Positions 1,844 to 60,057 of a DNA stretch of 64,000 nucleotides are shown here, piece after piece; positions within the stretch are counted from its first letter, which is position 1; every line of letters begins with the position of its first letter. This DNA comes from Actinomyces polynesiensis (lineage in GTDB: Bacteria > Actinomycetota > Actinomycetes > Actinomycetales > Actinomycetaceae). The stretch covers positions 1 to 64,000 of the forward strand of contig NZ_CCXH01000111.1 of the NCBI RefSeq assembly GCF_000820725.1, given 5' to 3'. A program made the translations under genes and the position numbers. The notes beneath the pieces are model-generated. The model was not told where the DNA came from. It worked only from the letters and a program-made list of their open reading frames with translations, and did not search any database.

Positions 1844-3325
1844 TCACGGCGTCCGCGTGGCGGCACGGGCCGCGGCCGCGACGTCCGCATCGACGCCGCG
1901 CGGGGGTCGACCAGTGCGCAGGGTCCCTGCCAGCAGTCCGAGGACGTCGAGCGTCGGGCTGCCAGCCGGGGGCGCCGCGAAGCTGTCCCTGGAGTCGTGC
2001 CAGCCGAGGTCGAACATCATCTCGCTGATGCTCCGGTCCCACAGTTCCGCAGGGGTCTCGCTCCCGGCGACGGCGAGGGCCGCCCAGCCGAACTGGCGCT
2101 CGGCGGTGGACTTCCCGAGCGGGAGCCGGCCCGTGATGTGGCGCAGGAGGGCCTCCGGGTCCTCACCACAGCGCCTGGCGGCCAGCGTCGGTGTGATGCG
2201 CCCCTTGCGCACGGAGACGAGCCCGAGGGCCTGAGCCGTGTCGCGCACCTGTGCGACGGGTGGGGTGAGGTCCTCGCGGTTGACCTTCCCGATCCACCAC
2301 TCGGCGATGCCGGTGCGCCGCGCGACCTGCTCGACGTCGGCCGGCTTCAGGTACCCCGCAGCGGTGAGCCCGACGCCCTCGCCGATGACGTCGAGCAGGA
2401 CCCGCAGGGGTTCCGTGAGCCGGGCAGCGGCATCGGCACTGACCTCGATGGGGCCGAAGGATGCGGGATCGGCGAGGGCGTCGCGCAGGAGGCGCGAGCC
2501 CCGGTTCCTCGACACCTCGAGCAGTGACGCGAGTTCCACGGTGACCGGCGCGGGCTCTACCGAGAGCATCGTGATCATCGCGTTCGTCCCCTCGAGGTCG
2601 AAGGCATCGGGATGCCACCCCTCGGGCAGCCAGGCGCGCCCGTCCTCGGCACTGTCGAAGACCTCCGGGCGCAGTGCATCATCGAAGCCGCTGCGCACCC
2701 ACTCGGCGATCTCGCTGTAGCCCCACGCACCGCCGCAGTCCTCCGGTGGGCAGGCGAGCCTGCCCCGGAGGCACCGGGGGGCGGTCGGCGGGTCATCGAG
2801 CACCTTCTCCACGCGCAGCACGTGCTCCCACCCGTCGCCGAAGTCGTACTCGTACCAGAGACGGTCGCCCTCGGCGGCGACGACCTGGTCCAGGCGGACT
2901 CCGTCCTCGAGCAGGCCCTCGTCACCCTCGTCGAGGTCGAAGGAAGTGAGGAACTCCGGAGCGTTGCGGCCGTTGCCCGTGCGGAAGCGGTGCAGGTGGC
3001 TGTCCGTCCACCCCATGGCGGCCTGGAGCACGTCGTGGAGGCGGGGGAGAGTGATGTCCCCGGGGACCTCGATGCGCCGCCAGACGGGCGGTTTGGTGCG
3101 CAGGAGGTCGACCCGGATGCGGAAGCCCCTCGTGGTCGTGGGGACGGGGTGGAGTCGGGGCCGAGGGTGATGCCAGGTGTCAGGCAGTCCGGGCCCGCCG
3201 CCGGGGAGTGCACCGGGGAAGCCGCCGGAGAGCAGTGCTCCGATCTGTTCCGGGGTGGCATCGCTCAGGAGTTCCTGGATGAACCTCCGGAGGTCCGGCG
3301 ACTCGAACTCGTTGTCGGATGTCAT
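1844..3325 (-). CDS. Plasmid pRiA4b ORF-3-like family protein
   Basis: The 493-aa product has the pRiA4b ORF-3-like fold at about residues 65-200: GFRIRVDLL, KPPVWRRIEVPGDITLPRLH, AMGWTDSHLHRF and YEYDFGDGWEHVLRVE are the hallmark segments. A second, less conserved half (about 230-493) is found in longer actinobacterial members. The biochemical role of the family is unknown. The frame is open far upstream (to 3961), but the ATG at 3325 is preferred: it follows a purine-rich GGGGGAACCAG, and the upstream extension runs through repeat DNA encoding a His/Asp tract. The gene is flanked on both sides by copies of a 70-bp repeat, which raises the possibility that it moved as a cassette. Confidence 0.8.
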   Translation of the reverse strand: MTSDNEFESPDLRRFIQELLSDATPEQIGALLSGGFPGALPGGGPGLPDTWHHPRPRLHPVPTTTRGFRIRVDLLRTKPPVWRRIEVPGDITLPRLHDVLQAAMGWTDSHLHRFRTGNGRNAPEFLTSFDLDEGDEGLLEDGVRLDQVVAAEGDRLWYEYDFGDGWEHVLRVEKVLDDPPTAPRCLRGRLACPPEDCGGAWGYSEIAEWVRSGFDDALRPEVFDSAEDGRAWLPEGWHPDAFDLEGTNAMITMLSVEPAPVTVELASLLEVSRNRGSRLLRDALADPASFGPIEVSADAAARLTEPLRVLLDVIGEGVGLTAAGYLKPADVEQVARRTGIAEWWIGKVNREDLTPPVAQVRDTAQALGLVSVRKGRITPTLAARRCGEDPEALLRHITGRLPLGKSTAERQFGWAALAVAGSETPAELWDRSISEMMFDLGWHDSRDSFAAPPAGSPTLDVLGLLAGTLRTGRPPRGVDADVAAAARAATRTP

Positions 3326-44594: not shown

Positions 44595-44667
44595 GCGCCC
44601 GTAGCTCAATGGATAGAGCATCTGACTACGGATCAGAAGGTTGGGGGTTCGAGTCCCTTCGGGCGCG
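44595..44667 (+). tRNA. tRNA-Arg (anticodon ACG), prophage integration target
   Basis: Acceptor GCGCCCG/CGGGCGC, anticodon stem TCTGA/TCAGA around CTACGGA (ACG), T loop GGTTCGAGTCC. Its 3' half from the anticodon stem on lies in the 80-bp att core, so the prophage restores a complete tRNA after integration. Confidence 0.93.
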
Positions 44668-44949
44668 CGGCAACCCCCCTCGGTGCGATCCACCGGTGGG
44701 GGTTCTGCTTTCCATGAAGTCGGTCACCAAGTCCTGGACAGAGACGCCGAGGATGGCGGCCACCATGTCAAGTTCATCCAAGGCCCACGGTGTCGTCCCG
44801 TGCCAACGCTTGTGCGCCTGGAATTGTGACATCCCAACCTCGCGAGCCAGCGCCGACTGAGAGAGCCCTGCGCGCGCCGCGAGTGCGCGAACGTTCCCCG
44901 CTACGACTTCAGAGAGTTGTGGCTCTCGGGCCACGGTCTGTGTACTCAT
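44626..44949 (-). CDS. Prophage repressor, truncated by integration
   Basis: 107 aa: a helix-turn-helix of the Cro/CI type (about 18-75, VRALAARAGLSQSALAREVG) and a tail whose residues 81-106 are encoded in the att core. Pro107 and the TAG stop (44626-44628) come from host tRNA DNA. In the excised phage the same frame would continue for 22 codons (starting WYPVAPV, ending YRLRRAS) and stop at 59909-59911, giving 128 aa, overlapping the 61-aa gene by ATGA. A TAGACT -10 (44956-44961) with TTCACA 18 bases upstream ends seven bases or fewer before the ATG. It is divergent from the Cro-like gene. Confidence 0.85.
   Translation of the reverse strand: MSTQTVAREPQLSEVVAGNVRALAARAGLSQSALAREVGMSQFQAHKRWHGTTPWALDELDMVAAILGVSVQDLVTDFMESRTPTGGSHRGGLPRARRDSNPQPSDP
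44632..44711. other. attL (80-bp core)
   Basis: Perfect 80-base direct repeat of 59978-60057. It starts in the tRNA anticodon stem (ATCAGAAGG), includes the tRNA 3' end and the tRNA terminator hairpin (AACCCCC 44672-44678 with GGGGGTT 44698-44704, nested CGGTG/CACCG) and ends in TTCTGCTTT. The core also encodes residues 81-106 of the phage repressor on the minus strand. Confidence 0.95.
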
Positions 44950-45022
44950 GACCTGAGTCTATAGCGTGAAGCAATAAAATGTGAAGTGGAATCGGTGCGA
45001 CACGCCGACGAAACGGCGATGA

Positions 45023-45043
45023 ACTATGGCATAACCCCATAGT
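45023..45043. promoter_or_regulatory. Phage operator overlapping the Cro-like promoter
   Basis: ACTATGG-cataacc-CCATAGT is a perfect 7-bp-arm palindrome. It overlaps TAGTCT (45040-45045), the likely -10 of the rightward gene, seven bases before its ATG. It is the best candidate for repressor or Cro binding. A second copy was not found near the repressor promoter. Confidence 0.55.
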
Positions 45044-45052
45044 CTGTTGGAC

Positions 45053-45881: not shown

Positions 45882-46105
45882 CCGTGGACGTGTTGCACCC
45901 GTGCGAGTGGCTGGACTCCGTGGCCGCCGTCGCGCCGTTCCAGCCCTCCAAGCCGTCGCATCTCCTGGACTTGCCCGGCTACGTCGCCCTGCTCTGCGAC
46001 GGGGACAACCTCACCAAAATCGACAGCTACGCCAAGCTCGTGCCGGGGATGGTCCTGGAGTTCGAGCGCGCCCGGCTCTCCAACAGGCTGGTGACCCGAC
46101 GATGA
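45878..46105 (+). CDS. Hypothetical phage protein, 75 aa
   Basis: Starts at GTG 45878 inside the previous stop and ends in an ATGA overlap with the next gene, so it sits in a tightly coupled chain. The sequence (VDVLHPCEWLDSVAAVAPFQ...) has no recognised domain. Confidence 0.65.
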   Translation: MTVDVLHPCEWLDSVAAVAPFQPSKPSHLLDLPGYVALLCDGDNLTKIDSYAKLVPGMVLEFERARLSNRLVTRR

Positions 46106-46875
46106 CCACCACGACCATGCGTCTCACGGCTGGCGCTCCCCTGCCCACCATCCTCAGCGCCCTGGGCCGCTCCGGGTGGGGTCCCCTGGACGGTCGGGAG
46201 TGGCAGGGCGTCCGCAGCGTCCTGCGCGCCCTGGGCGACACCCTCCACCCCCGCTACGGGCAAGGCGACACCACAGCGTGGCAGGTCAGCAAGGGAGCTG
46301 GCCTCTCCGAACGCTGGACCCGCGTGTGCTTGGGATGGCTGGAGGACGCGGGACTCATCGAGTGGCAACGCGGTGGCGTCCTCGACGGCAGGCCACTCGC
46401 CGGGACGATCCGTGTCGTCAAGTCCGCCCTGATCGACGTCCTGCGCGCCGCCCGCCCCGCCCACGACCAGGCCAGCCGCGACCGTTCCGCCAGGACCCGC
46501 CTCCGCCTCGCCCGCGCAGGCATCGTCACAATCCGTCGCCAGCATCGCCGCAGGTCAGACCATGCGGAACCAGGTGCAAGCCTTCCCCCCTCCAAGAGGG
46601 GGAGGGAGGGCCATCGGCCCATCCCATCCACCCCAACACCGATCACAGACAAGGAGAACACCGTGAACACCACGACGAAGGGCATGCCAGAGTCCGTGCG
46701 ACTGACCCGTCTGAGAGACCAGTACATGCGGACCCAGGGAATCACCAGCCCCGAAGATGTGGCCTACGCGCACCGACACATGGCCACCGTCCAGGACTGG
46801 GACCGCAAGATCGCAGCAGCCCGCAAGGCCGAACGACGCCCCGAGGAGGACCTGACCGATGCCCAACTCTGGTAA
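46102..46875 (+). CDS. Phage protein with N-terminal winged-helix-like domain, possible replication/regulatory protein
   Basis: 257 aa from ATG 46102 (ATGA overlap). The first 130 residues (WQVSKGAGLSERWTRVCLGW, LEDAGLIEWQRGGVLDGRP) look like a replication-initiator or helix-turn-helix domain; the middle is basic and low complexity. GAAGGAG-like AAGGAGAACACC precedes an in-frame GTG at 46664, which could give a separate 70-aa product (VNTTTKGMPESVRL...). Either a two-part protein or an internal start is possible. Confidence 0.6.
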   Translation: MTTTTMRLTAGAPLPTILSALGRSGWGPLDGREWQGVRSVLRALGDTLHPRYGQGDTTAWQVSKGAGLSERWTRVCLGWLEDAGLIEWQRGGVLDGRPLAGTIRVVKSALIDVLRAARPAHDQASRDRSARTRLRLARAGIVTIRRQHRRRSDHAEPGASLPPSKRGREGHRPIPSTPTPITDKENTVNTTTKGMPESVRLTRLRDQYMRTQGITSPEDVAYAHRHMATVQDWDRKIAAARKAERRPEEDLTDAQLW

Positions 46876-47065
46876 CCCCAGCAAGGACGACGACACCCGC
46901 CGTCGCCTCCTCGACCTGGCCGTGGGCATGCGGGACCTGGCCGATGACATGGTAGACCTCCTGCCCGACTCGCCCTACTCCATGAGCCGCGAGCAGCTCT
47001 ACTTGTCCAGGACTCTGGAAAGCATGCGCTCCACCACCAGCGCACTCATGGCGGTCCTGTCATGA
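46859..47065 (+). CDS. Small phage protein, 68 aa
   Basis: Overlaps the previous gene by 17 bases and the HNH gene by four (ATGA). Acidic and helical (DLAVGMRDLADDMVDLLPDS). No domain recognised. Confidence 0.6.
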   Translation: MPNSGNPSKDDDTRRRLLDLAVGMRDLADDMVDLLPDSPYSMSREQLYLSRTLESMRSTTSALMAVLS

Positions 47066-47415
47066 CCAGGACCTGGGGAGGCAGGCGCGCCCAGGGGCTC
47101 CTGCTCCTGGTGCTCCGCACCTACGGGCACACCTGCCACCTGTGCCACCAGCCCATCGACGTGAGCCTGATCGGCACGCGCGATCCCATGCGGCCCAGCG
47201 CTGACCACATCGTGCCCCGCTCGCGTGGTGGGAGCGACGCCATCGGGAACCTCCGGCCTGCTCACGTCCGCTGCAACAGCTCACGCCAAGCCAAGAGCAT
47301 GGCGAGCCTCCGAACGGCGACAGACGAGCGCCGTTTCTTTGAAAGCGGGGCCACGGGACACCCCGCGCCGCCCTGTCCTTTCCCTCCCGAAACCTCAGAA
47401 AAAACGGCGGAATAG
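47062..47415 (+). CDS. HNH endonuclease
   Basis: 117 aa with paired Cys (CHLCHQP) and the HNH core ADHIVPRSRGGSDAIGNLRP, then HVRCN. Phage HNH proteins beside terminase genes often assist genome packaging. The position immediately before the terminase pair fits that role. Confidence 0.88.
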   Translation: MTRTWGGRRAQGLLLLVLRTYGHTCHLCHQPIDVSLIGTRDPMRPSADHIVPRSRGGSDAIGNLRPAHVRCNSSRQAKSMASLRTATDERRFFESGATGHPAPPCPFPPETSEKTAE

Positions 47416-47424
47416 AGCCAGAAA

Positions 47425-47730
47425 ATGACGACCCAGGCCCAGACATTGCCCGGGATGGAGCACACCCCCTCCCAGATGGAGAAGGCAGTGGAGGCGACCA
47501 TCCAGGCCCTCCGAGACCAGGACCTCCTGCGCCCCGAGCACGAGGCCCTGGTGCAGCTCGCCCGAGAGCTGGCAAAGACCATCGCCGCAGGGAGCGCGTT
47601 CGCCAAGACGAGCGTGCCCCAAGCCGCCCAGCAGCTCATCTCCACCCTGGACGCCCTGCCCAAGCCGGTCGAGGCGCCCGTGACCGACCCCCTGGCAGAA
47701 GCCATGCGGGACGACGAGGCCGACCAGTGA
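47425..47730 (+). CDS. Terminase small subunit (P27-like)
   Basis: 101 aa, helical, directly before the large subunit with an ATGA-type overlap. Composition and size fit small terminases that recognise packaging sites; the assignment rests mainly on position. Confidence 0.65.
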   Translation: MTTQAQTLPGMEHTPSQMEKAVEATIQALRDQDLLRPEHEALVQLARELAKTIAAGSAFAKTSVPQAAQQLISTLDALPKPVEAPVTDPLAEAMRDDEADQ

Positions 47731-49130
47731 GCGCCCCCGCCCGCTACTCCACCGCCCCGACCCCCGGCGCGCGCAACGAGCAGAGGCACGTGGAACTCAT
47801 GGCCAGGCTCCTGGGGACACCCCTCATGCCGTGGCAGTCCCAGGTGGCCCGCGTCGCCACCGAGCGCCGAGCAGACGGCCGCGGCTGGCGCTACCCGACC
47901 GTTGTCCTCAGCGTGCCCCGCCAGTCCGGGAAAACCACCCTCATGCGCGCCGTCATGGCGCAGCGGACCCTGCGCTACCCCCGCACCCAGGCGTTCTACA
48001 CCGCCCAGACCGGCAAGGACGCCAGGGAGCGGTGGAAGGACCTGGTGGACATCGCAGAGATCAAGTTCCCCAACCTAGTGAGCATCAAGCGGGGCGCGGG
48101 CGCCGAGTGCATGGAGTGGCGCAACGGGCGCGGCCAGGTGCGCACCTTCGCTCCCACCAGGACCGCCCTGCACGGCTACACCCCCGAGCTGGTCATGCTC
48201 GACGAGGTATTCGCCTACGACGAGGACCTGGGGTCCGCCCTCATGGCCGCCATCGTCCCCGCCCAATCCACACTCGAGGACCGCCAGCTGTGGATCGTGT
48301 CCACCGCAGGTGACTCGCACTCCACCTGGTTGAAGGCCTGGGTGGACCGAGGCCGCGAGGCGACCAGCGACCCCATGAGCGCCATCGCCTACTTCGAGTG
48401 GTCAGCGCCCGAGGACCTCGACCTGTCCGACCCCCGCAACTTCGAGGTGTTCCACCCCGCAGTCGGACACACCCAGACCATCGCCACCCTGGCCGAAGCC
48501 GCCGACGCCATGACACCCGGCGAGTACCAGCGCGCATTCGGGAACCGGTGGACCACCACCAAGTCCAGCGTGATCCCCGCCGACGTGGTGGAGCGCTCCA
48601 CCAACCCCGAACAGATCCCACCCGAGGCCCTGGCCGACGCGGTGGCCGCCTACGACGTGGCCCCAGACCGGTCCTGGGCCACCCTGTGGCTCGCCTGGAG
48701 CGACCACCAAGGCCACCACCTGCGCCCCTGGCTCTCCCAACCCGGCACCTGGTGGCTCCCCAGCGAGGTGGACGCCCTGCGCGCCCAGGGCGTCTCCCGC
48801 ATCGGCGCCGACGATGGCGGGCCAGCCCGCAGCGTCACCGCCGCCCTCCGCCTGCGCGGCGTCGAGGTCGAGACCCTGGGCGCCCGAGACTTCGCATCCG
48901 GCACCGGAGACCTCATCGAGGCACTCACCATCGGCACCGCCGACCACTCCGGGGACCAGGGCCTGGTGGACGGCCTCGACGGCGCCGTCCTGCGCCGCAT
49001 GGGCGAGGCCGACGCCTGGTCCCGCCGAGACTCCACCGGCCCCATCTGGGAGGTCATCGCCGCCACCGTCGCCCTACGCCTCCTGACCTACGTCGAGGCC
49101 GCCCCCGCACCCATGGTGGTGTCCCTATGA
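47727..49130 (+). CDS. Terminase large subunit
   Basis: 467 aa packaging motor: Walker A SVPRQSGKTTL near residue 63, Walker B VMLDEVFAYDED near 155, the coupling STAGD, and a C-terminal nuclease with GADDGGPAR. It cuts and drives DNA into the prohead with the portal. Confidence 0.92.
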   Translation: MSAPARYSTAPTPGARNEQRHVELMARLLGTPLMPWQSQVARVATERRADGRGWRYPTVVLSVPRQSGKTTLMRAVMAQRTLRYPRTQAFYTAQTGKDARERWKDLVDIAEIKFPNLVSIKRGAGAECMEWRNGRGQVRTFAPTRTALHGYTPELVMLDEVFAYDEDLGSALMAAIVPAQSTLEDRQLWIVSTAGDSHSTWLKAWVDRGREATSDPMSAIAYFEWSAPEDLDLSDPRNFEVFHPAVGHTQTIATLAEAADAMTPGEYQRAFGNRWTTTKSSVIPADVVERSTNPEQIPPEALADAVAAYDVAPDRSWATLWLAWSDHQGHHLRPWLSQPGTWWLPSEVDALRAQGVSRIGADDGGPARSVTAALRLRGVEVETLGARDFASGTGDLIEALTIGTADHSGDQGLVDGLDGAVLRRMGEADAWSRRDSTGPIWEVIAATVALRLLTYVEAAPAPMVVSL

Positions 49131-49324
49131 GAGCGGAACACGTCCGCATCGACGCCAGCCCCGCAAGCGCCGTCGTCATCTGCACGTGCGGATGGCGCGA
49201 CGTGGCCACATCACCGCAGGTCGCAGCCCGTATGGGCGTCGAACACGAGGCACGATGCCACCCCGACCAACGACAGGCATACGACCTCGCCCGCGCCGCG
49301 ACACGCCGAGCCGACCGCCGATAG
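49127..49324 (+). CDS. Small phage protein, 65 aa
   Basis: Starts in an ATGA overlap with the terminase gene. It has a CxC...HxxxC arrangement (CTCGW, HEARCH) that suggests a small zinc-binding fold. Function unknown. Confidence 0.6.
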   Translation: MRAEHVRIDASPASAVVICTCGWRDVATSPQVAARMGVEHEARCHPDQRQAYDLARAATRRADRR

Positions 49325-49350
49325 TCCAACACCGGCGATCCCATAGGCCC

Positions 49351-50445
49351 ATGGCCAATGTGCTCGCCCGACTCTTCGGCATCGACTCCCGATCCCGCCA
49401 GGTCGCATCCCCCTGGGCCGACCGGGAGACCCTGGAGGCCGCCGCCTGGGCGAACCTGCTCGACCTCCCCGACGACGCCCTCCCCATCACCCGCACCCAA
49501 GCCATGAGCGTGGCCGCCATCGCCCGAGGCCGCCAGCTCATCACCGGCAGCATCGCCCGCCTGCCCCTCATCGGCATGCGCGGCACCGACCCCATGGAAA
49601 CCCAGCCCCCCGTCCTCGACCAGCCCGAGTCCGGGCGTCCCCGCTTCCAGACCCTCACCTGGGCAGTGGACGCCATGCTGTTCTACGGGCGCGCCTGGCT
49701 GACTGTCCAGACCCGCTCCGAGGACCGCCCCACCAAGGTCTGGTGGGTCCCAGAATGGGAAACCACACTCGATGACCTGGGCAACCTCACACACGCCTTC
49801 GGACGCCCCGTCCAGGCCGCTGACGTGATCCGCATTGACGGCCCCACAGAAGGCCTCCTGAACTTCGCCGCGCCCCGCATCCACGCCGCCCGCCGCCTCG
49901 ACGCCGCCGCCCTGCGCGCCGCCTCCAACCCCGTCCCCGCCGTCGAGCTCCACCAGTCCAGCGGCACCCCCCTCACCCCCGACGAAGCCAAGAAGCTGGT
50001 GGCCGACTACCTGGCCGCCCGCCACGGGTCCGACGTGTCCTACACCAACTCCACGATCGAGACCAAGACCCACGGTGCCAACCCTGAGCAGCTCCTCATC
50101 GACGGGCGCAAGGCCGCAGCCCTCGACCTTGCCCGCGCCATGGGACTGCCTGCCTGGGCCGTGGACGCCCCCGTCGAGGGCTCCAGCATGACCTACACGA
50201 ACGTCCCCAGCCGGTCCCGAGAGCTCCTGGACTACGCGCTGGCCCCCTACATGGAAGCCATCACCGCTCGCCTGTCCATGGACGACGTGCTGCCTCGCGG
50301 GCAGTGGTGCCGCTTCGACACCGACGCCTTGCTTCGCGATGACTTCAAGACCCGCATGGAGTCCTACAAGACCGCCCTGGAAACCAAGATCTACGACCTC
50401 GACCAGCTCCGCGCCCGTGAGCGTGGCATCCCCCTGGAGAAATGA
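49351..50445 (+). CDS. Portal protein
   Basis: 364 aa HK97-type portal: N-terminal MSVAAIARGRQLITGSIARL, central PLIGMRG, and C-terminal helices. Short for the family (usually 400-500), in keeping with the compact genome. It overlaps the capsid gene by four bases. Confidence 0.85.
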   Translation: MANVLARLFGIDSRSRQVASPWADRETLEAAAWANLLDLPDDALPITRTQAMSVAAIARGRQLITGSIARLPLIGMRGTDPMETQPPVLDQPESGRPRFQTLTWAVDAMLFYGRAWLTVQTRSEDRPTKVWWVPEWETTLDDLGNLTHAFGRPVQAADVIRIDGPTEGLLNFAAPRIHAARRLDAAALRAASNPVPAVELHQSSGTPLTPDEAKKLVADYLAARHGSDVSYTNSTIETKTHGANPEQLLIDGRKAAALDLARAMGLPAWAVDAPVEGSSMTYTNVPSRSRELLDYALAPYMEAITARLSMDDVLPRGQWCRFDTDALLRDDFKTRMESYKTALETKIYDLDQLRARERGIPLEK

Positions 50446-51995
50446 CCATGACAACCCCCATCCTCTGCGCCACGCCCGCCCCCGGCCTCATCCGGGCCGC
50501 CCTCGTCACCGCCAGCGTGGACACCGAACACCGCACCATCGAAGGGATCGCCACATTCTTCGGGCAGGCCGCCAACGCCTCCACCGGGCGCGTCCAGTTC
50601 GAGACCGGCAGCCTCCACCTGCCCGAGGACCTGCGCCGCGTCAAGCTCTGCGTTGACCATGACCACACCCGCGCCGTCGGCTACTGCATCGACGCCAGCA
50701 TTCAGGGCGACCAGCTCCGGACCAAGTTCCAGGTCCCCGAGACGCCCGAAGGAGACGAAGCCCTCGCCAGCGCTGCCAACGGCCTGCGCGACGGCCTCAG
50801 CGTCGGCGCATTCCCCGAACCTGGCGGCGCGAAGTACCTCCACGGTTCCCAGACCCTCGTCATCACCAACGCCGTCGTCCGGGAGGTCTCCCTGACCGCT
50901 CTCCCCGCCTTCGACGCCGCCCGCGTGGCCGCCGTCAAGGCCACCACCCCCGACCCGTCCACCCCCACCACCCAGGAAGGCACCACCCACATGGACCCCG
51001 AAGAGACCACCACCGAGACCACCCAGACCCCCACCGTCGAGGCCACGGCCACGGCCACCCAGGCACCGCCCGTCGTCCCCACCCGCCGCGCCCCCGCCAC
51101 CGTCGAGGCCGCCGCCCAGACCGTCGTGCGCATGCTCCAGGATGGAGCCACCCCCGGCGCCGTGCAGGCGGCCCTCCAGGACGTCGTGCCCGCCGACGAC
51201 GCCGGAAAGGGATTCATCGGCAGGGACACCTGGCTGGGACAGCTCTGGCAGGCCCGCCGCGTCGCCCGCCCCCTGATTGACTCCATCACCACCAAGCCCC
51301 TGGGCCGCACCACCAAGGTCAAGGGCTGGCAGTGGGAGACCCGCCCCACCGTGGACGCCTACACGGGCAACAAGACCGCCATCGCCTCCAACAAGGTCAA
51401 GACCAAGGCCATCGAGGCCAGCGTGGAGCGCACCGCAGGCGGCTGGGACGTGGACCGCATCTATGTGGACCTGGGCGACCCCGACATGCTCCAGGCCCTG
51501 TGGGAGGGCGCCCTGGAGGACTACCTCCTCAAGACTGAAGCCAAGGCCGCCACCGGCATGCTCGCCGCCGCGACCGCCGTCACCGCCACCAGCACCGACC
51601 TGCCCGCCGCACTCGTCCAGTTGGGACTGGCCGCAGCCAGCCAGGCCAGCGCTCTCAACTTCGTGGCCTTCGGCGCTGACGTGTGGGCCGCGTTCACCGC
51701 CCTCACCAAGGACGAGATCCCCTGGTGGATCACCAGCGGGGACGCCCTCAACCTCTCCACCACCAGCGGCCAGGTCAACGGCCTGCGCCTGTTCGTGGAC
51801 CCCACCATCGCGGGTACCACGATCCTGGCCGGAGACAAGCGCGCCGCCGAGTGGCACGAAGCCAACCCGCCGGTTCGCGTCAACGCCGTGAACCTCCCCA
51901 ACGGCGGCGTGGACCTCGGCCTGTTCGGCTACCATGCCCTCCTGGTCAACGACCCCGCGAGCCTGTTCAAGATCGAGCAGGGCGGCGGCTCCTGA
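50442..51995 (+). CDS. Fused prohead protease and major capsid protein
   Basis: 517 aa. Residues 1-165 resemble the HK97-type maturation protease, with VDHDHTRAVGY and the SVGAF region for the catalytic His and Ser. A Thr/Pro/Glu-rich linker (about 170-220) follows, then an HK97-fold capsid domain (TWLGQLWQARRVARPLID to the end). A protease and scaffold-like linker joined to the capsid protein is known in some small actinophages. Cleavage probably releases the capsid subunit. Confidence 0.85.
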   Translation: MTMTTPILCATPAPGLIRAALVTASVDTEHRTIEGIATFFGQAANASTGRVQFETGSLHLPEDLRRVKLCVDHDHTRAVGYCIDASIQGDQLRTKFQVPETPEGDEALASAANGLRDGLSVGAFPEPGGAKYLHGSQTLVITNAVVREVSLTALPAFDAARVAAVKATTPDPSTPTTQEGTTHMDPEETTTETTQTPTVEATATATQAPPVVPTRRAPATVEAAAQTVVRMLQDGATPGAVQAALQDVVPADDAGKGFIGRDTWLGQLWQARRVARPLIDSITTKPLGRTTKVKGWQWETRPTVDAYTGNKTAIASNKVKTKAIEASVERTAGGWDVDRIYVDLGDPDMLQALWEGALEDYLLKTEAKAATGMLAAATAVTATSTDLPAALVQLGLAAASQASALNFVAFGADVWAAFTALTKDEIPWWITSGDALNLSTTSGQVNGLRLFVDPTIAGTTILAGDKRAAEWHEANPPVRVNAVNLPNGGVDLGLFGYHALLVNDPASLFKIEQGGGS

Positions 51996-51997
51996 CC

Positions 51998-52336
51998 ATG
52001 GCCGACGACACCCCGACCCCCGTCACCGCCGAGGCCCTCGCCACCAAGGCCGCATCGTGGGTCAAGCTGGCAGGCGGCCCAGACGAGGCCATGCGGGACT
52101 GCGCCAGCGCCGTCCTCGCCCTCGTCTCCCGCCTGCCAGTGGGTGCCACCACGCCCTGGGGTGAGGACACCATCTTGGGTGCCGTCATGCTGACCGCCCG
52201 ACTCCACCGCCGCCGCAACTCCGCCGCAGGAATCGAAGCCATGACCGAGCTGGGCGCCACCTACGTGTCCCGCTACGACAACGACATCGCGCGCCTCCTG
52301 CGCATCGACACGTTCCAGACCCCGGTGGCGATATGA
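51998..52336 (+). CDS. Head-tail connector protein
   Basis: 112 aa, helical, after the capsid gene with three bases between. The size and position match Gp6/Gp15-type adaptors (residues such as MTELGATYVSRYDNDIARLL in the C-terminal part). It overlaps the next gene by ATGA. Confidence 0.6.
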   Translation: MADDTPTPVTAEALATKAASWVKLAGGPDEAMRDCASAVLALVSRLPVGATTPWGEDTILGAVMLTARLHRRRNSAAGIEAMTELGATYVSRYDNDIARLLRIDTFQTPVAI

Positions 52337-52680
52337 GCACCCTCAGCCAAGCCGCCGCCGAGACTTCCGCCATGCTCACCGACTGGGGTGTCCACACCGT
52401 CACCGACCCCAGGGACCTCAACCTGCCCGGCGCCTGGCTCGCCCCCTCACAAATCGACCACGAAACCCTCACCACCGGCCCCCTACGCGTGGCGTGGGAC
52501 CTCTACCTGCTCGCCCCCGACAACGGCGCACCCCTCGACGCCCTCGGCGCCATGCTCGACCAGCTCACACCCCACATGGTCCTGGGCACCATCGACGCCC
52601 TGAGCCTCACCGTCGCCAACCAATCCCCGGACCCCCTCCCCGCCCTCCATCTCACCTTCGAAACGGAGCACACACCATGA
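52333..52680 (+). CDS. Tail terminator/minor head-tail protein
   Basis: 115 aa in the position of the tail-terminator or second connector between capsid and tail-tube genes. Mixed alpha/beta pattern. No sequence signature is decisive. Confidence 0.5.
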   Translation: MSTLSQAAAETSAMLTDWGVHTVTDPRDLNLPGAWLAPSQIDHETLTTGPLRVAWDLYLLAPDNGAPLDALGAMLDQLTPHMVLGTIDALSLTVANQSPDPLPALHLTFETEHTP

Positions 52681-53093
52681 CCGTCAACATCACCCGCCTG
52701 GGACCCGGCGTCCTCACCTTCGGAGAGACCGGAACCCTGTCCACCTGGTCCAGCCAGGTCACCAAGTGCAGCGTGGTCCCCGAGGTCAAGACCGACGACC
52801 CCGTGCCCGTCCTCTCCGGTGAAAGCGCCCCAGGCGACCGCACCGAAGCGTTCTCCCTCAAGGGGACCATCCTCCAAGACCTCGGCGCCACGGCCTCCAT
52901 CTCGGAGTGGACATGGGACCACCGAGGCGAAACCCTGCCCTTCAAGTTCGTCCCCAACAACGCCAAGGGCAAGGCCGTCCTGGGCGAGTGCACCATCGAG
53001 GCAACCGAAATCGGCGGCGAAGTCTCCGCCAACGCCACAGCCGACTTCGAGTTCTCGTGCACGTCCGCCCCCTCCATCGAGGACGCCATCTGA
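52677..53093 (+). CDS. Major tail tube protein
   Basis: 138 aa, beta-rich (ITRLGPGVLTFGETGTLSTW, CTIEATEIGGEVSANATADF), start in an ATGA overlap. Position before the tail-completion and chaperone genes and the beta pattern fit the tail tube of small siphophages. Confidence 0.7.
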   Translation: MTVNITRLGPGVLTFGETGTLSTWSSQVTKCSVVPEVKTDDPVPVLSGESAPGDRTEAFSLKGTILQDLGATASISEWTWDHRGETLPFKFVPNNAKGKAVLGECTIEATEIGGEVSANATADFEFSCTSAPSIEDAI

Positions 53094-53096
53094 CCA

Positions 53097-53492
53097 ATGG
53101 CCACCGACTACACCGGCGTCAAGCTCGACGGCGCACGTCGCCTACGCTCCACCCTCCGCAAGGCAGGGGTGGACATGACCAAACTGCGCGACACCAACCG
53201 CGAGGTCGCCGGAGTAGTCGTCACAGCGGCAGGCGCCCGAGTCCCCACCAGGACCGGGCGCCTGGCCGCCACCCTCCGCACCGGCGCCACCCGGACAGCA
53301 GCCATCGCCCGCGCAGGCAACAACCGAAGCGGTGGCGTCCCCTACGGCAACCCCATCCACTGGGGCTGGTTCCGCCGACACATCAAGCCCAACCCGTTCC
53401 TGAGCCTCGCCGCCCAATCAACAGAACCCACCTGGTTCGGAATCTACTCCGAACGCATCGGGCAAATCCTCGACACCGTAAAGGGAAAATGA
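53097..53492 (+). CDS. HK97 gp10-like tail component
   Basis: 131 aa with the PTRTGRLAATLRTGA segment and a late GWFRRHIKPNPFL, characteristic of HK97 gp10-type proteins at the head-tail joint. Confidence 0.75.
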   Translation: MATDYTGVKLDGARRLRSTLRKAGVDMTKLRDTNREVAGVVVTAAGARVPTRTGRLAATLRTGATRTAAIARAGNNRSGGVPYGNPIHWGWFRRHIKPNPFLSLAAQSTEPTWFGIYSERIGQILDTVKGK

Positions 53493-53493
53493 A

Positions 53494-53796
53494 ATGCAGA
53501 ACCTCCAGGTGCAAATCGTCACCACCGCACTCTCCGACGACGCCGCCCCCCGCGTGGTCACCGTCCAGACCGACAACAGGGACCAAGTTCGGTGGGAGCT
53601 GGCACGCGCCCGCGAAGGATGGCCCGCCCAGACCGAGGCCCCAGCCCTCTTCACCGCTTACGTGGCATGGTCTGCGCTCGCCCGTGGAGGCGACCTCCAG
53701 GGAATGAAGTTCGCCGACTTCCAGCAGACCGTCATCGCGTCCACCGCGTCCCTGGTGGACGTGGACCCTACCCGAGCGGCTCCCGCCGCCGACTGA
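53494..53796 (+). CDS. Tail assembly chaperone (G protein)
   Basis: 100 aa immediately before the tape measure gene. A second frame (-1 relative to this one) overlaps and continues through IVELALATRIPMSEWETRP to 53897, which resembles the T part of a G-T fusion. The two are probably joined by programmed frameshift. No classic XXXYYYZ slippery heptamer is visible near the stop. Confidence 0.72.
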   Translation: MQNLQVQIVTTALSDDAAPRVVTVQTDNRDQVRWELARAREGWPAQTEAPALFTAYVAWSALARGGDLQGMKFADFQQTVIASTASLVDVDPTRAAPAAD

Positions 53797-53897
53797 TCGT
53801 CGAACTCGCCCTGGCGACGCGCATTCCCATGAGCGAATGGGAAACGCGCCCCACCGAGGACATCGCAACCGCCATAGAGCTACTGGAAATCAGGTGA
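53797..53897 (+). CDS. Tail assembly chaperone T extension (frameshift product)
   Basis: Open in the -1 frame after the chaperone stop: it reads LIVELALATRIP, MSEWETRPTED and IATAIELLEIR. No good independent start exists except ATG 53830, so it is most likely made only as a G-T fusion. The tape measure begins eight bases after its stop. Confidence 0.55.
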
Positions 53898-53904
53898 TCC
53901 GCTA

Positions 53905-55380
53905 ATGGCTTCCAAGACCGCCATTCTCTCCGTCCGAGTCGTCTCCGACACAAAAGACGCGAAGAAGGGAATGGACGACGTGGCCACCGGCGTGGACAAG
54001 CTGGAGCAGGGCCTCAACAAGGCCACCGTGCCCGCAGGTCTCGCCCTGGGAGCCATCACAGCCCTCGGGAAAGGCGCCTACGATGCAGCCTCCGACCTCC
54101 AGCAGTCAGCCGGTGCCGTCGAATCAGTGTTCAAGGACCAGGCGGACACCATCATCGGCGCCTCCAAGACCGCAGCCGACGCAGTAGGCCTCTCCACGTC
54201 CAGCTACCAGAACCTTGCCACCGTTCTAGGCGCCCAGCTGAAGAACATGGGCATGCCCATGGACGAAGTGGCAGGAAAGACCACAGACCTGATCGGCCTC
54301 GGGTCCGACCTCGCCGCCACCTTCGGCGGGACGACATCCGACGCCGTGTCCGCCGTGTCCGCCCTCCTGCGAGGCGAACGCGATCCCATCGAACGCTACG
54401 GCGTTTCCATCAAGCAGGCCGACATCAACGCCCGCATGGCAGCCGACGGCCTCACGGGCCTGTCCGGGGACGCAGCCAAAGCCGCGGAGACCCAGACCGT
54501 TCTGGCCATGCTCGCCGAGCAGACCAGCGGTGCCATGGGCCAGTTCGCCCGCGAGACCGACAGCGCGGCAGGCGCCCAGCAGATAGCAACCGCCCAGTGG
54601 GAGAACGCCCGCGCCGAGCTGGGAGAGCGACTCCTCCCCATCGGCACCCAAGTCTCCCAGTGGCTCGCCCAGGGCGCCCAACTGGTCATGCAGCATTCCG
54701 GGGCCGTCACCATCCTGGTCGGCGTCGTCGCCGCCCTCTCCGCAGCGGTCCTCATCGCCAACGGCGCACTGAAGGCCTACAAGGCAGCCCAGACCGCCGT
54801 GAAGGTCGCCACCACCGTCTGGACCGCTGCACAGTGGGCCATCAACGCCGCACTGACAGCCAACCCCATCGGGCTCGTGGTCGTCGCCATTGCCGCCCTG
54901 GCAGCCGGAGTGATCTACGCCTACAAGAACAGCGAGACGTTCAGGAACGGCGTCAACGCAGCGTGGGACGCTGTGAAGTCCGGCGCCTCCATCGTCTGGA
55001 ACACCCTGGAGCCCATCCGAAATGCATTCAGTGGAATAACTGACGCGGTGAAATCTGCCTACAACTGGGTCAGCAACCTGTTTAGCAGCTTCACCCCACC
55101 ATCCTGGCTCCAAACAGTCGCCGGATTCGTCGGCCTCACCGCCGACACCACCCAGTCCGTCGAGCTGGCGGCAGGCACTGGCATGTCCGCTGCACCCAGC
55201 CTCGCGCGACTGGTCACGCTCTCCGGGTCCCGCAACTCCGCGCCCGCCACCGTCGTCCACAACACCATCACCATCAACGGCGCCCTGGACCCCGTGGAGG
55301 TGTCCCGTCAGCTCCGTCGCATCCTCGACGACCACGATGTGCGCGTCACCTCCAGCCGAACCGTAGGAGCCTCCCTGTGA
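53905..55380 (+). CDS. Tape measure protein
   Basis: 491 aa: long helical N-terminal part (VATGVDKLEQGLNKATVPAG), Gly/Ala hydrophobic stretches in the middle (about 265-340) and a short C-terminal domain. At about 0.15 nm per residue the tail would be roughly 70-75 nm, short for a siphophage. Overlaps the next gene by four bases. Confidence 0.88.
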   Translation: MASKTAILSVRVVSDTKDAKKGMDDVATGVDKLEQGLNKATVPAGLALGAITALGKGAYDAASDLQQSAGAVESVFKDQADTIIGASKTAADAVGLSTSSYQNLATVLGAQLKNMGMPMDEVAGKTTDLIGLGSDLAATFGGTTSDAVSAVSALLRGERDPIERYGVSIKQADINARMAADGLTGLSGDAAKAAETQTVLAMLAEQTSGAMGQFARETDSAAGAQQIATAQWENARAELGERLLPIGTQVSQWLAQGAQLVMQHSGAVTILVGVVAALSAAVLIANGALKAYKAAQTAVKVATTVWTAAQWAINAALTANPIGLVVVAIAALAAGVIYAYKNSETFRNGVNAAWDAVKSGASIVWNTLEPIRNAFSGITDAVKSAYNWVSNLFSSFTPPSWLQTVAGFVGLTADTTQSVELAAGTGMSAAPSLARLVTLSGSRNSAPATVVHNTITINGALDPVEVSRQLRRILDDHDVRVTSSRTVGASL

Positions 55381-57056
55381 CCATCACCCCCAGCCTCCGC
55401 ATGGGAGGCGGCACCGTGTCCATGACCGCTGACCAGTACCCCACCGACGACACCGCGCTGGACTCCCTGCGCATCATCTGGGGACGCGGGGACCCCTGGA
55501 GCCACCCAGACCCCGCCACACTCACCGCGCGGGTCGCCCTGGTCACCGGCGTGCCGGGCTGGCTCCACGTCGGCGCCACCATCGACGCCCACCTGGGTGG
55601 CACCATTGAGGACGACCGGCCCCTGCTGGACCTCCTGCCCTGGGTGGACGCGGCAGACCTCCCCGACCTCTGGAGCCCGCAGGTGTTCCCCCCTCAGCCA
55701 CGCGGCGACAGTGGGCTGCCCGAGATTGAGCGCAGTGGCGTCTCCGGCGGCTGGGTCGAGGTCTACCCCGGTCCTCGCGTCCCCACCGAGTTCCCCAGGG
55801 TCTGGGACAACCGGCGCCGCGCCTACCCCGGCGACACTCTCACCCTCACTCTCGACATGCCCGTCCACCGCGGCTACACCGTTGAGGTGGCCCCCATCCT
55901 GTTCCTGACTCCCTCCGCCACCTACCGCACTCTGCCCACCCAGGTCACCATCCTCCCCTCCGAGACCACCGGCCCCACCACCGCCACCATCACCATCCCC
56001 ACGGACCTCCCCAGCCCCGGCCCCTACTGGGTGGGCCTCCGCGTCTCATGGGAGGCCACCGAGGGATACAAGACGTGGGCAGACGACCCCGGCACCTGGG
56101 CATCCGCCACCGGCACCTGGGAGGACCACGCCGCCCGCCTCCACCTGACAGACATCGCCCTCACCGCCCCGCCCCGCGATACCTCTCTCGACACCACCTC
56201 GTTCTCCGGGAGCGTCACCGAGGTCGTGGCCGCCTGGGATGACAAGCTCCACCGGCCCGTCGCCACCATCACCGCCACCGACATCCTGGCCGACATCAAC
56301 GCCACCCGCGTGGGGGAGACCCCCTGGCCCGCGGAGCCCACCATCGACCGCCTGACCCGCATCCTCACCACCGCACTCGGCCAGACGCCCACCGTCCTCG
56401 ACGCTGGAGCCCTCCTGCCCTCACGCACCTGCCGCGCCAGGGACGTGGACTCCCGCAGCGCCGGGGACCTCGCCCGCCTCACCCTCAACACCAACCTGGC
56501 CACCCTCCACCCCACCTACCAGGAGGACACCCCGACCTTCCGCCTGGTCCCCATGGGTGCCCCCAGCGCCCAGGACGTGGCCGTGCGTATCCCCGCATCC
56601 AGCATCCCCCGCGACGGCCTGCGAGCCAGCAACTCCACCGGCACCGGCGCCACCGTCGTGGAGGTCACCTGGAGGGACGGCACGACAGACCGCACGTGGA
56701 CCGACGAGCTGCCCGACCTGGGCGACCTCGGCCCCCGCTCCATCAAGATCGAGACCGAGGCCGCCAGTGAGTCCCAGGCCCTTGATATCGGCTGGCAGGC
56801 ACTCCACCTCATGGACCCCAGGTCCTGGCAGATCACCGGCCTGACCCTCTCCACCGTCACCCAGCCCACCGTCTCCGACGCCACCCTGCTGGCACTCCTG
56901 GACCCCACCAGCCGCCCCGGCCAGCGCCTCACCATCACCGACTGCCCGCCCTGGGTGGGAGGCCCCACCCTCGACCTGCTGACCCTCGGAGCCTCCATGA
57001 CTGCCCACCAGGGCGGATGGACACTCGACCTCGACGTGCTCCGCATCACCCACTGA
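55377..57056 (+). CDS. Minor tail protein
   Basis: 559 aa, beta-rich, in the distal-tail/baseplate position between tape measure and the receptor-binding gene. DTALDSLRIIWGRGDPWSHP near the start and a repeated Thr/Pro pattern are seen in minor tail proteins of actinophages. No enzymatic motif recognised. Confidence 0.75.
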   Translation: MTITPSLRMGGGTVSMTADQYPTDDTALDSLRIIWGRGDPWSHPDPATLTARVALVTGVPGWLHVGATIDAHLGGTIEDDRPLLDLLPWVDAADLPDLWSPQVFPPQPRGDSGLPEIERSGVSGGWVEVYPGPRVPTEFPRVWDNRRRAYPGDTLTLTLDMPVHRGYTVEVAPILFLTPSATYRTLPTQVTILPSETTGPTTATITIPTDLPSPGPYWVGLRVSWEATEGYKTWADDPGTWASATGTWEDHAARLHLTDIALTAPPRDTSLDTTSFSGSVTEVVAAWDDKLHRPVATITATDILADINATRVGETPWPAEPTIDRLTRILTTALGQTPTVLDAGALLPSRTCRARDVDSRSAGDLARLTLNTNLATLHPTYQEDTPTFRLVPMGAPSAQDVAVRIPASSIPRDGLRASNSTGTGATVVEVTWRDGTTDRTWTDELPDLGDLGPRSIKIETEAASESQALDIGWQALHLMDPRSWQITGLTLSTVTQPTVSDATLLALLDPTSRPGQRLTITDCPPWVGGPTLDLLTLGASMTAHQGGWTLDLDVLRITH

Positions 57057-57070
57057 GAAAAGGACCGCTC

Positions 57071-57424
57071 ATGCCCTCCGCCACATCCAAGGGAGTGCCC
57101 TACCCTCTCCCCGCCGACAACCGCGGCGCCTACCCCACCGAGGTCGGAAAGCCCCTGGCCGAGTGGATCGACGCCAAGACCCCCCAGCGTGGCTCCGTTG
57201 CAGGCAGCAGCGCCATGGCCGCCGACGCAACCAACACCTTCACCGTGACCTTCCCCCGGCCCTTCGCCACCCCTCCCACCGTCATAGTGGGGTCTGACAA
57301 CAGTCGCGTGGCCACCGAGGCAAAGAACATCACCACCACCGGGTTCAATCTGGCCGCGCGCAACGTGTCCGCCGGTCCGACGAGCGGCCCCGTGACCTAT
57401 GCGTGGATCGCGCTCGCGTCATGA
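57071..57424 (+). CDS. Probable tail tip/receptor-binding protein with H-type-lectin-like domain
   Basis: 117 aa; the segment FTVTFPRPFATPPTVIVGSD, followed later by TGFNLAARNVS, resembles H-type-lectin-like beta domains found at phage tail tips. AAAAGGA upstream fits translation initiation. Overlaps the endolysin start by ATGA. Confidence 0.65.
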   Translation: MPSATSKGVPYPLPADNRGAYPTEVGKPLAEWIDAKTPQRGSVAGSSAMAADATNTFTVTFPRPFATPPTVIVGSDNSRVATEAKNITTTGFNLAARNVSAGPTSGPVTYAWIALAS

Positions 57425-58233
57425 CCGACTACCCCACCGCGAACTCCTACGCTTCCCGCCTGCGCCCTGTGCGTCTCATCGTCGTGCACACGATGGAGGT
57501 CCCCTGCACTGACCAGGCCACTCACGCCGTCATGCGCGCCTTCCAGGACACCAGCCGCCAAGCCTCCGCCCACTACGGGGTCGGGCCGGGCGTCACGCTC
57601 TCCGGCGTGCCCGAGACCGCCACCGCCTGGGCCACCCCCGGAGCCAACGCCGACGGCATCCAGATCGAACAGGCCGGATACTCCGGCAAGACCTCCGGCA
57701 CCCCAGCGGGCACGGACTGGACGAGTGGCCCCGGCGCAGCCGTCGTCGCCCGAACCGCCGCCCTGGTGCGCGACCTCTGCAACCGGTGGAACATCCCGCG
57801 CCGACACCTCACCGACGCCCAGCTCGCCGCAGGCGAGGCCGGGATCATCGGCCACGTCCAGGCCAGCCGCGTCTACGGCGGCACCCACTGGGACCCCGGC
57901 GAAACCTACCCCTGGGACGCCATCACCAGCACCCAGCAGACCACCGCCACGCCCACCACACCCACCACCACGCAGGAGGCACCCGAAATGGTCATCATCA
58001 AGAGCGCGAACCGGAAGGCCGCCCTCATCGGCCCCGCCAGCTTCCACCAGTTCCGCAACAGCGAGGAGCAGGCCACCGCCATCACCGTCCTCGCCCCCGC
58101 CATCAAGGACACGATCACCGATCGCCAGTACGACGTGATCCGCGCCGTCATCGCTGCCGGGGCCCTCGACGCCACCCAGACCCGGGCCGACCTCGCCACC
58201 CTCCTGGCCGACCTCGACAAGGAGACCGCCTGA
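57421..58233 (+). CDS. Endolysin, N-acetylmuramoyl-L-alanine amidase
   Basis: 270 aa. The amidase_2 domain (about 10-185) shows VRLIVVHTMEVP with the first zinc His, SAHYGVGP with the second region, and HVQASRVYGGTHWDPGETYP with the third His. After a Thr/Pro linker, residues 195-270 form a helical segment that may bind the wall or be made separately. It cleaves the stem peptide from glycan at lysis. Confidence 0.88.
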   Translation: MTDYPTANSYASRLRPVRLIVVHTMEVPCTDQATHAVMRAFQDTSRQASAHYGVGPGVTLSGVPETATAWATPGANADGIQIEQAGYSGKTSGTPAGTDWTSGPGAAVVARTAALVRDLCNRWNIPRRHLTDAQLAAGEAGIIGHVQASRVYGGTHWDPGETYPWDAITSTQQTTATPTTPTTTQEAPEMVIIKSANRKAALIGPASFHQFRNSEEQATAITVLAPAIKDTITDRQYDVIRAVIAAGALDATQTRADLATLLADLDKETA

Positions 58234-58234
58234 C

Positions 58235-58540
58235 ATGGAGGCCATCACCATCGCCGCCGTGGCTGGGGCCATCGCCCCCGCCCTGGTCGCCGTCATCACC
58301 CGTGCCTCCTGGCCCACCCGCACCAAACAGGTCATCGCGTACAGCGTGACCGCGGTGCTGGTGCTCCTGGGCCTCATCGCCACCTGGAGGCCCGAGACGT
58401 GGCAGCAGATCGCCGCCGCCATCATGGCCGCCATCGGCGTCTGCCAGGTCCTCTACACGGCCCTGCGCCCCGTGTGGGACGCCCTGCGCGCCCTCACCAC
58501 ACCCACCCAGGGCAGGCACGCCGCAGGAGCCGACCAGTGA
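58235..58540 (+). CDS. Holin-like membrane protein 1
   Basis: 101 aa, two to three membrane segments (IAAVAGAIAPALVAVIT, VIAYSVTAVLVLLGLIA, IAAAIMAAIGVCQVLYTAL), directly after the endolysin. Charged C terminus. Overlaps the next gene by GTGA. Confidence 0.75.
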   Translation: MEAITIAAVAGAIAPALVAVITRASWPTRTKQVIAYSVTAVLVLLGLIATWRPETWQQIAAAIMAAIGVCQVLYTALRPVWDALRALTTPTQGRHAAGADQ

Positions 58541-58884
58541 CCGGCCCCGAGGCCCTCGACGCCCTGGTGGCACTCGGGGGCCTCGGGGGCGTGGCCGCAA
58601 CCATCACCAGCCTGGCGACCCTGGTCAAGACCAGGCAGGTGCACGACGACACGTCCCAGGTGCGCGCCGACAGTGCCACCGCCGCAGCCCAGCTCCAGCC
58701 CGACCACGGGTCCAGCGTGGCCGACAAGATCGACGGCCTGGTCCGCGAGGTCCGCGGCCTCGGCCACCAGGTCGGGGAGCTCCGCGACTCTATGGTCCAG
58801 GAGCAGGAGGACCGCCGCCAGGGCGACGAGACCCTGCGCCACATGCTCGACGCACGCCCCATGGGATACCCCTGGGACAAGTGA
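58537..58884 (+). CDS. Holin-like membrane protein 2 (DUF2746-like)
   Basis: 115 aa from GTG 58537: one membrane segment (LVALGGLGGVAATITSLATL) and a coiled-coil acidic tail (DKIDGLVREVRGLGHQVGEL). This layout matches DUF2746 proteins found after endolysins in actinophages. Confidence 0.7.
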   Translation: MTGPEALDALVALGGLGGVAATITSLATLVKTRQVHDDTSQVRADSATAAAQLQPDHGSSVADKIDGLVREVRGLGHQVGELRDSMVQEQEDRRQGDETLRHMLDARPMGYPWDK

Positions 58885-59726: not shown

Positions 59727-59912
59727 TCAGCCGCGCACGTCGCCCAGGGCGCGCTGGAGCGTCAAGCGCAGGAGAGCGAGCGCTGCCAGCGTCTCAGCGT
59801 CCCGCCGCCCAGGGCGGGCATCAATGGCCCGCAGCTCCCGAAGCGCGCCCTCGGCCATGGAGCGCGTCATCTCCGGCACCGGCCCCGGAGTGACCCACTC
59901 GTCGTCGCTCAT
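59727..59912 (-). CDS. Small phage protein between attP and int, 61 aa
   Basis: MSDDEWVTPGPVPEMTRSMA... acidic N terminus and a helical C-terminal half. Its ATG overlaps the stop of the predicted long form of the repressor by ATGA. In the lysogen that upstream frame would instead derive from host DNA. It could be an excision factor or an integrase partner; no HTH is evident. Confidence 0.65.
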   Translation of the reverse strand: MSDDEWVTPGPVPEMTRSMAEGALRELRAIDARPGRRDAETLAALALLRLTLQRALGDVRG

Positions 59913-59977
59913 GATGCCCTCCGCAGCCGGTACTCACCGAGGTCCGTCACCGTGGCCACGGGGGCCACGGGATACCA

Positions 59978-60057
59978 ATCAGAAGGTTGGGGGTTCGAGT
60001 CCCTTCGGGCGCGCGGCAACCCCCCTCGGTGCGATCCACCGGTGGGGGTTCTGCTTT
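59978..60057. other. attR (80-bp core)
   Basis: Perfect copy of 44632-44711, here without the 5' half of the tRNA. It contains the tRNA 3' half and terminator hairpin as a relic. Confidence 0.95.

Follow-up and report, generated by a model that had tools for sequence, protein, structure and literature searches.

The 64,000-nucleotide stretch of Actinomyces polynesiensis DNA analysed here (the window) contains a temperate siphophage of about 15.4 kb that very probably controls its lysogeny by a BPs-type integration-dependent immunity switch, in which the phage repressor gene is cut short by integration. Mycobacterial, Gordonia and bifidobacterial phages are known to carry such a switch; the prophage adds a convincing new case and extends this well-studied system to another actinobacterial family. 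A preliminary description of the locus had proposed the BPs-type layout and the continuity of the repressor frame, both of which stand together with the reading given to them. It had also presented the switch as new outside mycobacteriophages, which does not hold, since cases in Gordonia (PMC5559632) and Bifidobacterium (PMC6109161) have been published. No description of such a switch in Actinomyces was found among the matches listed, in a literature search that left subscription journals mostly outside its reach.

The longest exact direct repeat in the window (80 bp) forms the att core, with one copy at each end of the prophage (Table 1). The left copy is made up of the 3' end of a host tRNA-Arg gene and a downstream inverted repeat, such that attB overlaps the tRNA gene. 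The prophage looks complete, because genes for terminase, portal, a capsid-protease fusion, tape measure and endolysin all lie between the cores. It also resembles the small-genome actinobacteriophages of the AN/CW type in its size, which falls in their 14-18 kb range, in consisting mostly of virion genes and in its terminase, which is 49% identical to those of AN phages. A viral contig of other source (L003) encodes an identical repressor and identical phage proteins (100%), likewise in the integrated form, and the closest named relative of the integrase in genome contigs is that of Buchananella hordeovulneris (54%, among the best 80 of 143). The 61-aa ORF upstream of the integrase is without a match in Pfam or PHROGs and by tblastn among the loci compared, and no recombination directionality factor was recognised in the prophage by Pfam and PHROG family searches.

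Table 1. Features of the prophage and its attachment sites, in positions of the window.
Feature	Position	Strand	Basis or remark
Host tRNA-Arg(ACG), attachment site	44595..44668	+	ARAGORN; 3' half inside core
Integrated repressor, 107 aa, HTH_26 domain	44626..44949	-	ORF and domain match
attL copy of core	44632..44711		direct repeat
Divergent control region	44950..45052		
Promoter-like match (one)	44985-44956	-	pattern match only
Candidate operator, perfect inverted repeat ACTATGG-N7-CCATAGT	45023-45043		pattern match only
Divergent Cro-like HTH protein, 77 aa	45053..45286	+	PHROG transcriptional repressor families
Small-siphophage body	45901..58884	+	family matches including Pfam, PHROGs
Terminase	47727-49130	+	in phage body
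Portal	49186-50445	+	in phage body
Capsid-protease fusion	50442-51995	+	in phage body
Tape measure	53905-55380	+	in phage body
Endolysin	57403-58233	+	in phage body
Tyrosine integrase, 276 aa	58886..59716	-	PF00589; C-terminus VAIAAS
61-aa ORF	59727..59912	-	ATG overlaps viral-repressor TGA
Viral-form repressor tail, 22 codons and TGA	59909..59977	-	prophage ends joined in silico
attR copy of core	59978..60057		direct repeat

The repressor gene runs out of the prophage through attL. Residues 81-106 of the integrated protein are encoded wholly by the core and residue 80 partly so, while residue 107 and the TAG stop are host DNA inside the tRNA-Arg gene; repeat search, ORF analysis and ARAGORN all agree with the coordinates first given for the core, the integrated form and its host-supplied stop. 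When the prophage ends are joined in silico through the core, an unbroken 128-codon frame results (...DSNPQPSD followed by WYPVAPVATVTDLGEYRLRRAS), which places the core of attP within the repressor coding sequence and ends in RAS. The frame thus runs for 22 codons past the core to a TGA (59911-59909) that overlaps the ATG of the 61-aa ORF (ATGA), as had been read beforehand from attR, and the reassembled circle has the expected order of repressor (with attP in its 3' end), 61-aa ORF and integrase, all in one direction. In the lysogen the bacterial TAG ends the protein at attL, and the integrated form is shorter than the viral form (107 versus 128 residues). No sequence of the free phage came to light: in the assembly of this genome the attP junction is present only as its two halves, and a megablast search with the prophage over 50,697 phage records returned two short partial matches, both to Curtobacterium phages.

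An open frame alone proves little at this base composition, because 22735 of the 30400 frames surveyed in the prophage (75%, at 69% GC) are open for 22 codons, and 58% of shuffled flanks are too. Frame continuity as sole evidence was rejected on these grounds, and relatives were collected because the open frame was not significant by itself. An N-terminal repressor profile gave matches in 69 of 213 genomes of the family. A repressor search of 35 congeneric genomes, where many matches were to tRNA DNA alone, yielded ten matches to the N-terminal part, spread over nine genomes and counting the window. A tRNA gene lies at the 3' side of the match, as read here, in 21 of 30 loci among the matches listed, and phage-side sequence was taken for 27 loci plus the window, picked as tRNA-anchored or likely to be so. 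The repressor family ends in several tRNA genes (Arg-ACG, Arg-TCT, Asn and Lys), with different frames of the core in use.

Both cores and an integrase were found for 15 prophages, window included, although G034 has its two sites on separate contigs and just the beginning of an integrase, and the integrase of G164 is in pieces; the pair of cores in G108c3, which is without an integrase, was left out. In all 15, the reading frame of the repressor stays open beyond the core in the attP form, adding 8-45 residues, and Ala or Ser is the C-terminal residue in 12 of these viral forms (LAA in four, RAS in three, LVA in two, and GAA, KSA and TYS), the rest ending RAI, HEK and NST. The RAS ends belong to the window, L006/L012 and G034, three congeneric phages that read different frames of the core. 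At all nine GATTA-type cores a TAA or TAG stop is completed by host sequence, and the phage side encodes Tyr instead; the three TTCTG-type cores that are read in the GLEPPTF frame have TGA completed on the host side and Trp or Cys on the phage side. This contrast is partly forced, because a repeat ends where the bases differ.

A wider set was built from the integrase, whose profile matched 351 viral-contig and 143 genome-contig relatives, and among the best 80 of each (160 loci) an antisense tRNA 3'-half motif lies at most 1.5 kb upstream of the integrase in 88 and a sense motif in 7, with 4 of these loci having both. Fifteen integrase loci have a same-strand upstream repressor homologue, and in 13 the antisense motif falls inside the repressor frame; the other two, L170 and L232, are without an antisense motif despite the homologue.

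The 15 paired-core prophages, the 13 motif-in-frame loci, L008, L021 and phage Angel make up a set of 31 viral forms of known frame. Ala or Ser is the last residue in 26 of the 31, as against 11/59 off-frames and 79/269 other ORFs of the same contigs. Ends of the class AA, VA, AS, SA or TA account for 25/31, 10/59 and 33/269, respectively (Fisher, 6e-9 versus off-frames and 3e-15 versus other ORFs). This class was drawn up with the first tails already in view, and independence does not hold for every locus (G074 has the tail of G043, and L137 resembles L164); the other-ORF control is conservative because integrases and some repressor frames remain in it. A partly independent check used 40 attR loci, of which L097 is the L012 site, with the frame set from the core (GLEPPTF-type, then a non-stop codon), and found the class in 27/40 tails versus 7/73 off-frames. 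The six known-frame forms outside the class end RAI, HEK, NST, TYS and NRSE or are tailless. The NRSE form (L136) ends six residues past LGLAA. The tailless form is that of L102/L004 (about 3267-3288), where the repressor frame shifts inside the core and the literal viral form stops at the core; its flank ends YRAARAS in another frame, and over the shared part a single residue separates its repressor from that of G024. Given these relatives, a degradation tail is far more likely than it would from the sequence of the window alone.

The preliminary description had remarked that the tail end is not a canonical LAA, but this is no weakness. The host tmRNA tag AEQNRTDYVLAA ends YVLAA, and the RAS end of the repressor does differ from its LAA, but an Ala-Ser end has precedent, because the viral repressor of Angel ends STLDKAS, the same KAS end is specified by the primer published for BPs gp33-136, and the substitution A135E, beside that end, stabilises the BPs protein (PMC4557955). 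The integrase end VAIAAS falls in the same class, which occurs in 63/117 compact integrases of the set, within an Ala-rich tail. With tRNA genes and core frames that vary and Ala/Ser ends that recur, many phages could be used to test the degradation-tail idea, and the RAS and KAS ends could show whether Ser serves as well as Ala in the last position.

A second tail motif, [VI][IVT][DS]L..[YW]R, is present in the window (VTDLGEYR, in 59912-59977) and in L126 (ITDLGEYR), and also in L012, L071 (G016), L204 and L210. Its counts, made post hoc, are 6/29 known-frame and 4/40 attR tails versus 1/38 and 0/49 off-frames, respectively; in these, L097 and L012 are duplicates, L139 matches loosely and the sole off-frame match is the L004 flank.

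The recurrence of such a motif would fit a tail with a mainly non-proteolytic role, which might alter repressor activity, for instance by activating the repressor promoter, or might couple translation to the next gene, whose ATG overlaps the repressor TGA. Stabilised BPs gp33-136 also seems to raise Prep activity modestly, although DNA binding is alike in both forms of the protein (PMC4557955). We nevertheless consider such a role improbable, as it leaves the Ala/Ser ends, the strongest signal, unexplained, the second motif is absent from most tails, and degradation of the BPs repressor via its C-terminal end has been demonstrated by others (PMC4557955). Least probable of all is a tail that is open by chance, with no half-life difference between the two forms: about three quarters of 22-codon frames are expected to be open at this GC content, some relatives end without Ala or Ser and L102/L004 are tailless in the literal frame, but the in-frame ends are unlike those of off-frames and same-contig ORFs, the attR loci repeat the contrast, and the ...RAS ends are common to three congeneric phages that use different core frames.

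On the degradation-tail reading, the repressor, 61-aa ORF and integrase of the excised circle would be read together from the repressor promoter and the repressor would be short-lived, since the tail of the 128-aa form probably flags it for host proteolysis, leaving the lytic genes able to run. Recombination of attP with the tRNA-Arg gene by the integrase would then part the tail from the repressor and supply a stop from host DNA, so that integration would leave the repressor at attL, apart from the integrase at attR, in a 107-aa form expected to be stable and to repress the divergent Cro-like/early operon. The geometry, the frames, the homology of integrase and repressor and the recurring Ala/Ser tail ends are observed here; proteolysis, repression and joint repressor-integrase transcription are the steps that we infer. 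The locus has the divergent Cro-like gene and an intervening control region with a candidate operator, for which no second copy exists in the window at up to 3 mismatches, only the exact site itself. Of six relatives tried, four have inverted repeats that differ from it, and in G016 and G014 none of the set size was seen.

The defining features of integration-dependent immunity, including the host base that completes the BPs stop codon, have been set out before (PMC9262239, PMC9934374). The prophage shares with BPs and Angel (cluster G) an attP in the repressor 3' end, a tRNA-Arg core and a host-supplied stop, and its integrase is of the same family as that of the Angel group (48% identity). 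The viral repressor end of Angel is of the same class (KAS versus RAS), and its TGA overlaps the GTG of the integrase. Angel differs in reading the core in another frame (GFEPPTF), in its 41-kb genome and in having no ORF between repressor and integrase, where the window has the 61-aa ORF. Among Gordonia Int-Y phages with a recognised attP, about half have such systems, including the 17-kb cluster CW siphophages Jeanie and GMA5 (PMC5559632). These two read the core in the same frame as the window (RDSNPEPAD), with viral ends that we read as LVAA (Jeanie) and GAAA (GMA5), and GMA5 has an extra ORF between repressor and integrase (PMC5559632), in the same place as the 61-aa ORF. They differ in their tRNA-Lys site (PMC5559632) and in structural gene order, with, for example, the lysin before the capsid. 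The Bifidobacterium prophages Bb423phi2 and 689b-1, compared here by description, are likewise small and CW/AN-related and lose an ssrA-like tag on integration, but they use a tRNA-Met site and have an 18-residue tail (PMC6109161). The Arthrobacter cluster AN phages Taj14, Maggie and Decurro are close in genome size (15.5 kb) and in terminase, whereas Maggie is seemingly lytic and without an immunity system (PMC5559632). A related layout without a recognisable tag is described for Arthrobacter phage Galaxy (PMC5513430).

Integration makes the repressor self-contained, ending in a host tRNA gene, and a host could therefore be left with the immunity gene after the phage is gone. Our survey for solitary repressors covered 28 tRNA-anchored loci (window included), 22 of which have 20 kb or more of sequence on the phage side. 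Twelve of the 22 have paired cores together with an integrase (in G104, no other phage protein of the window was matched). In nine, the repressor is intact and neither an integrase nor any of the structural proteins used as probes was found nearby, a fraction that is not a family-wide rate, because the loci were chosen, and that may overlook unrelated phage genes, because the search used 12 window proteins and two profiles. These nine, examined over 40-80 kb, are L260 (G024), L257 (G005), L267 (G006), L262 (G010), L261 (G018), L266 and L296 (G108), L264 (G154) and L272 (G126). Each repressor frame runs intact as far as its host-side stop, and the neighbours, judged by eye, look like ordinary host genes and a few unknown ORFs, with a transposase-like ORF near G024. 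G126 retains a Cro-like match, a 30-bp repeat of the core lies 2 kb from G108c3, and in both G005 and G006 an integrase match on the opposite strand is about 75 kb distant. In G154 two repressors lie in tandem.

We suggest, tentatively, that solitary repressors, frequent in the family (9/22 examined loci), would act as retained anti-phage immunity genes; if they do protect the bacteria that carry them, immunity genes are a further legacy of the switch. No literature description of tRNA-anchored solitary repressors was found among the matches listed. The one orthologous pair compared, the repressors of G005 and G006, has a dN of 0.045 and a dS of 0.138 (ratio 0.33), and dN/dS values for three neighbours named by eye are 0.009/0.057 (orn), 0.002/0.029 (threonine dehydratase) and 0.011/0.024 (ssb), a comparison that gives no clear sign of strong constraint on solitary repressors. 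At the remaining one of the 22 loci, L309 (G164), only the repressor and a broken integrase, in several frames about 2 kb 5' of the repressor, are present, with paired cores about 2 kb apart.
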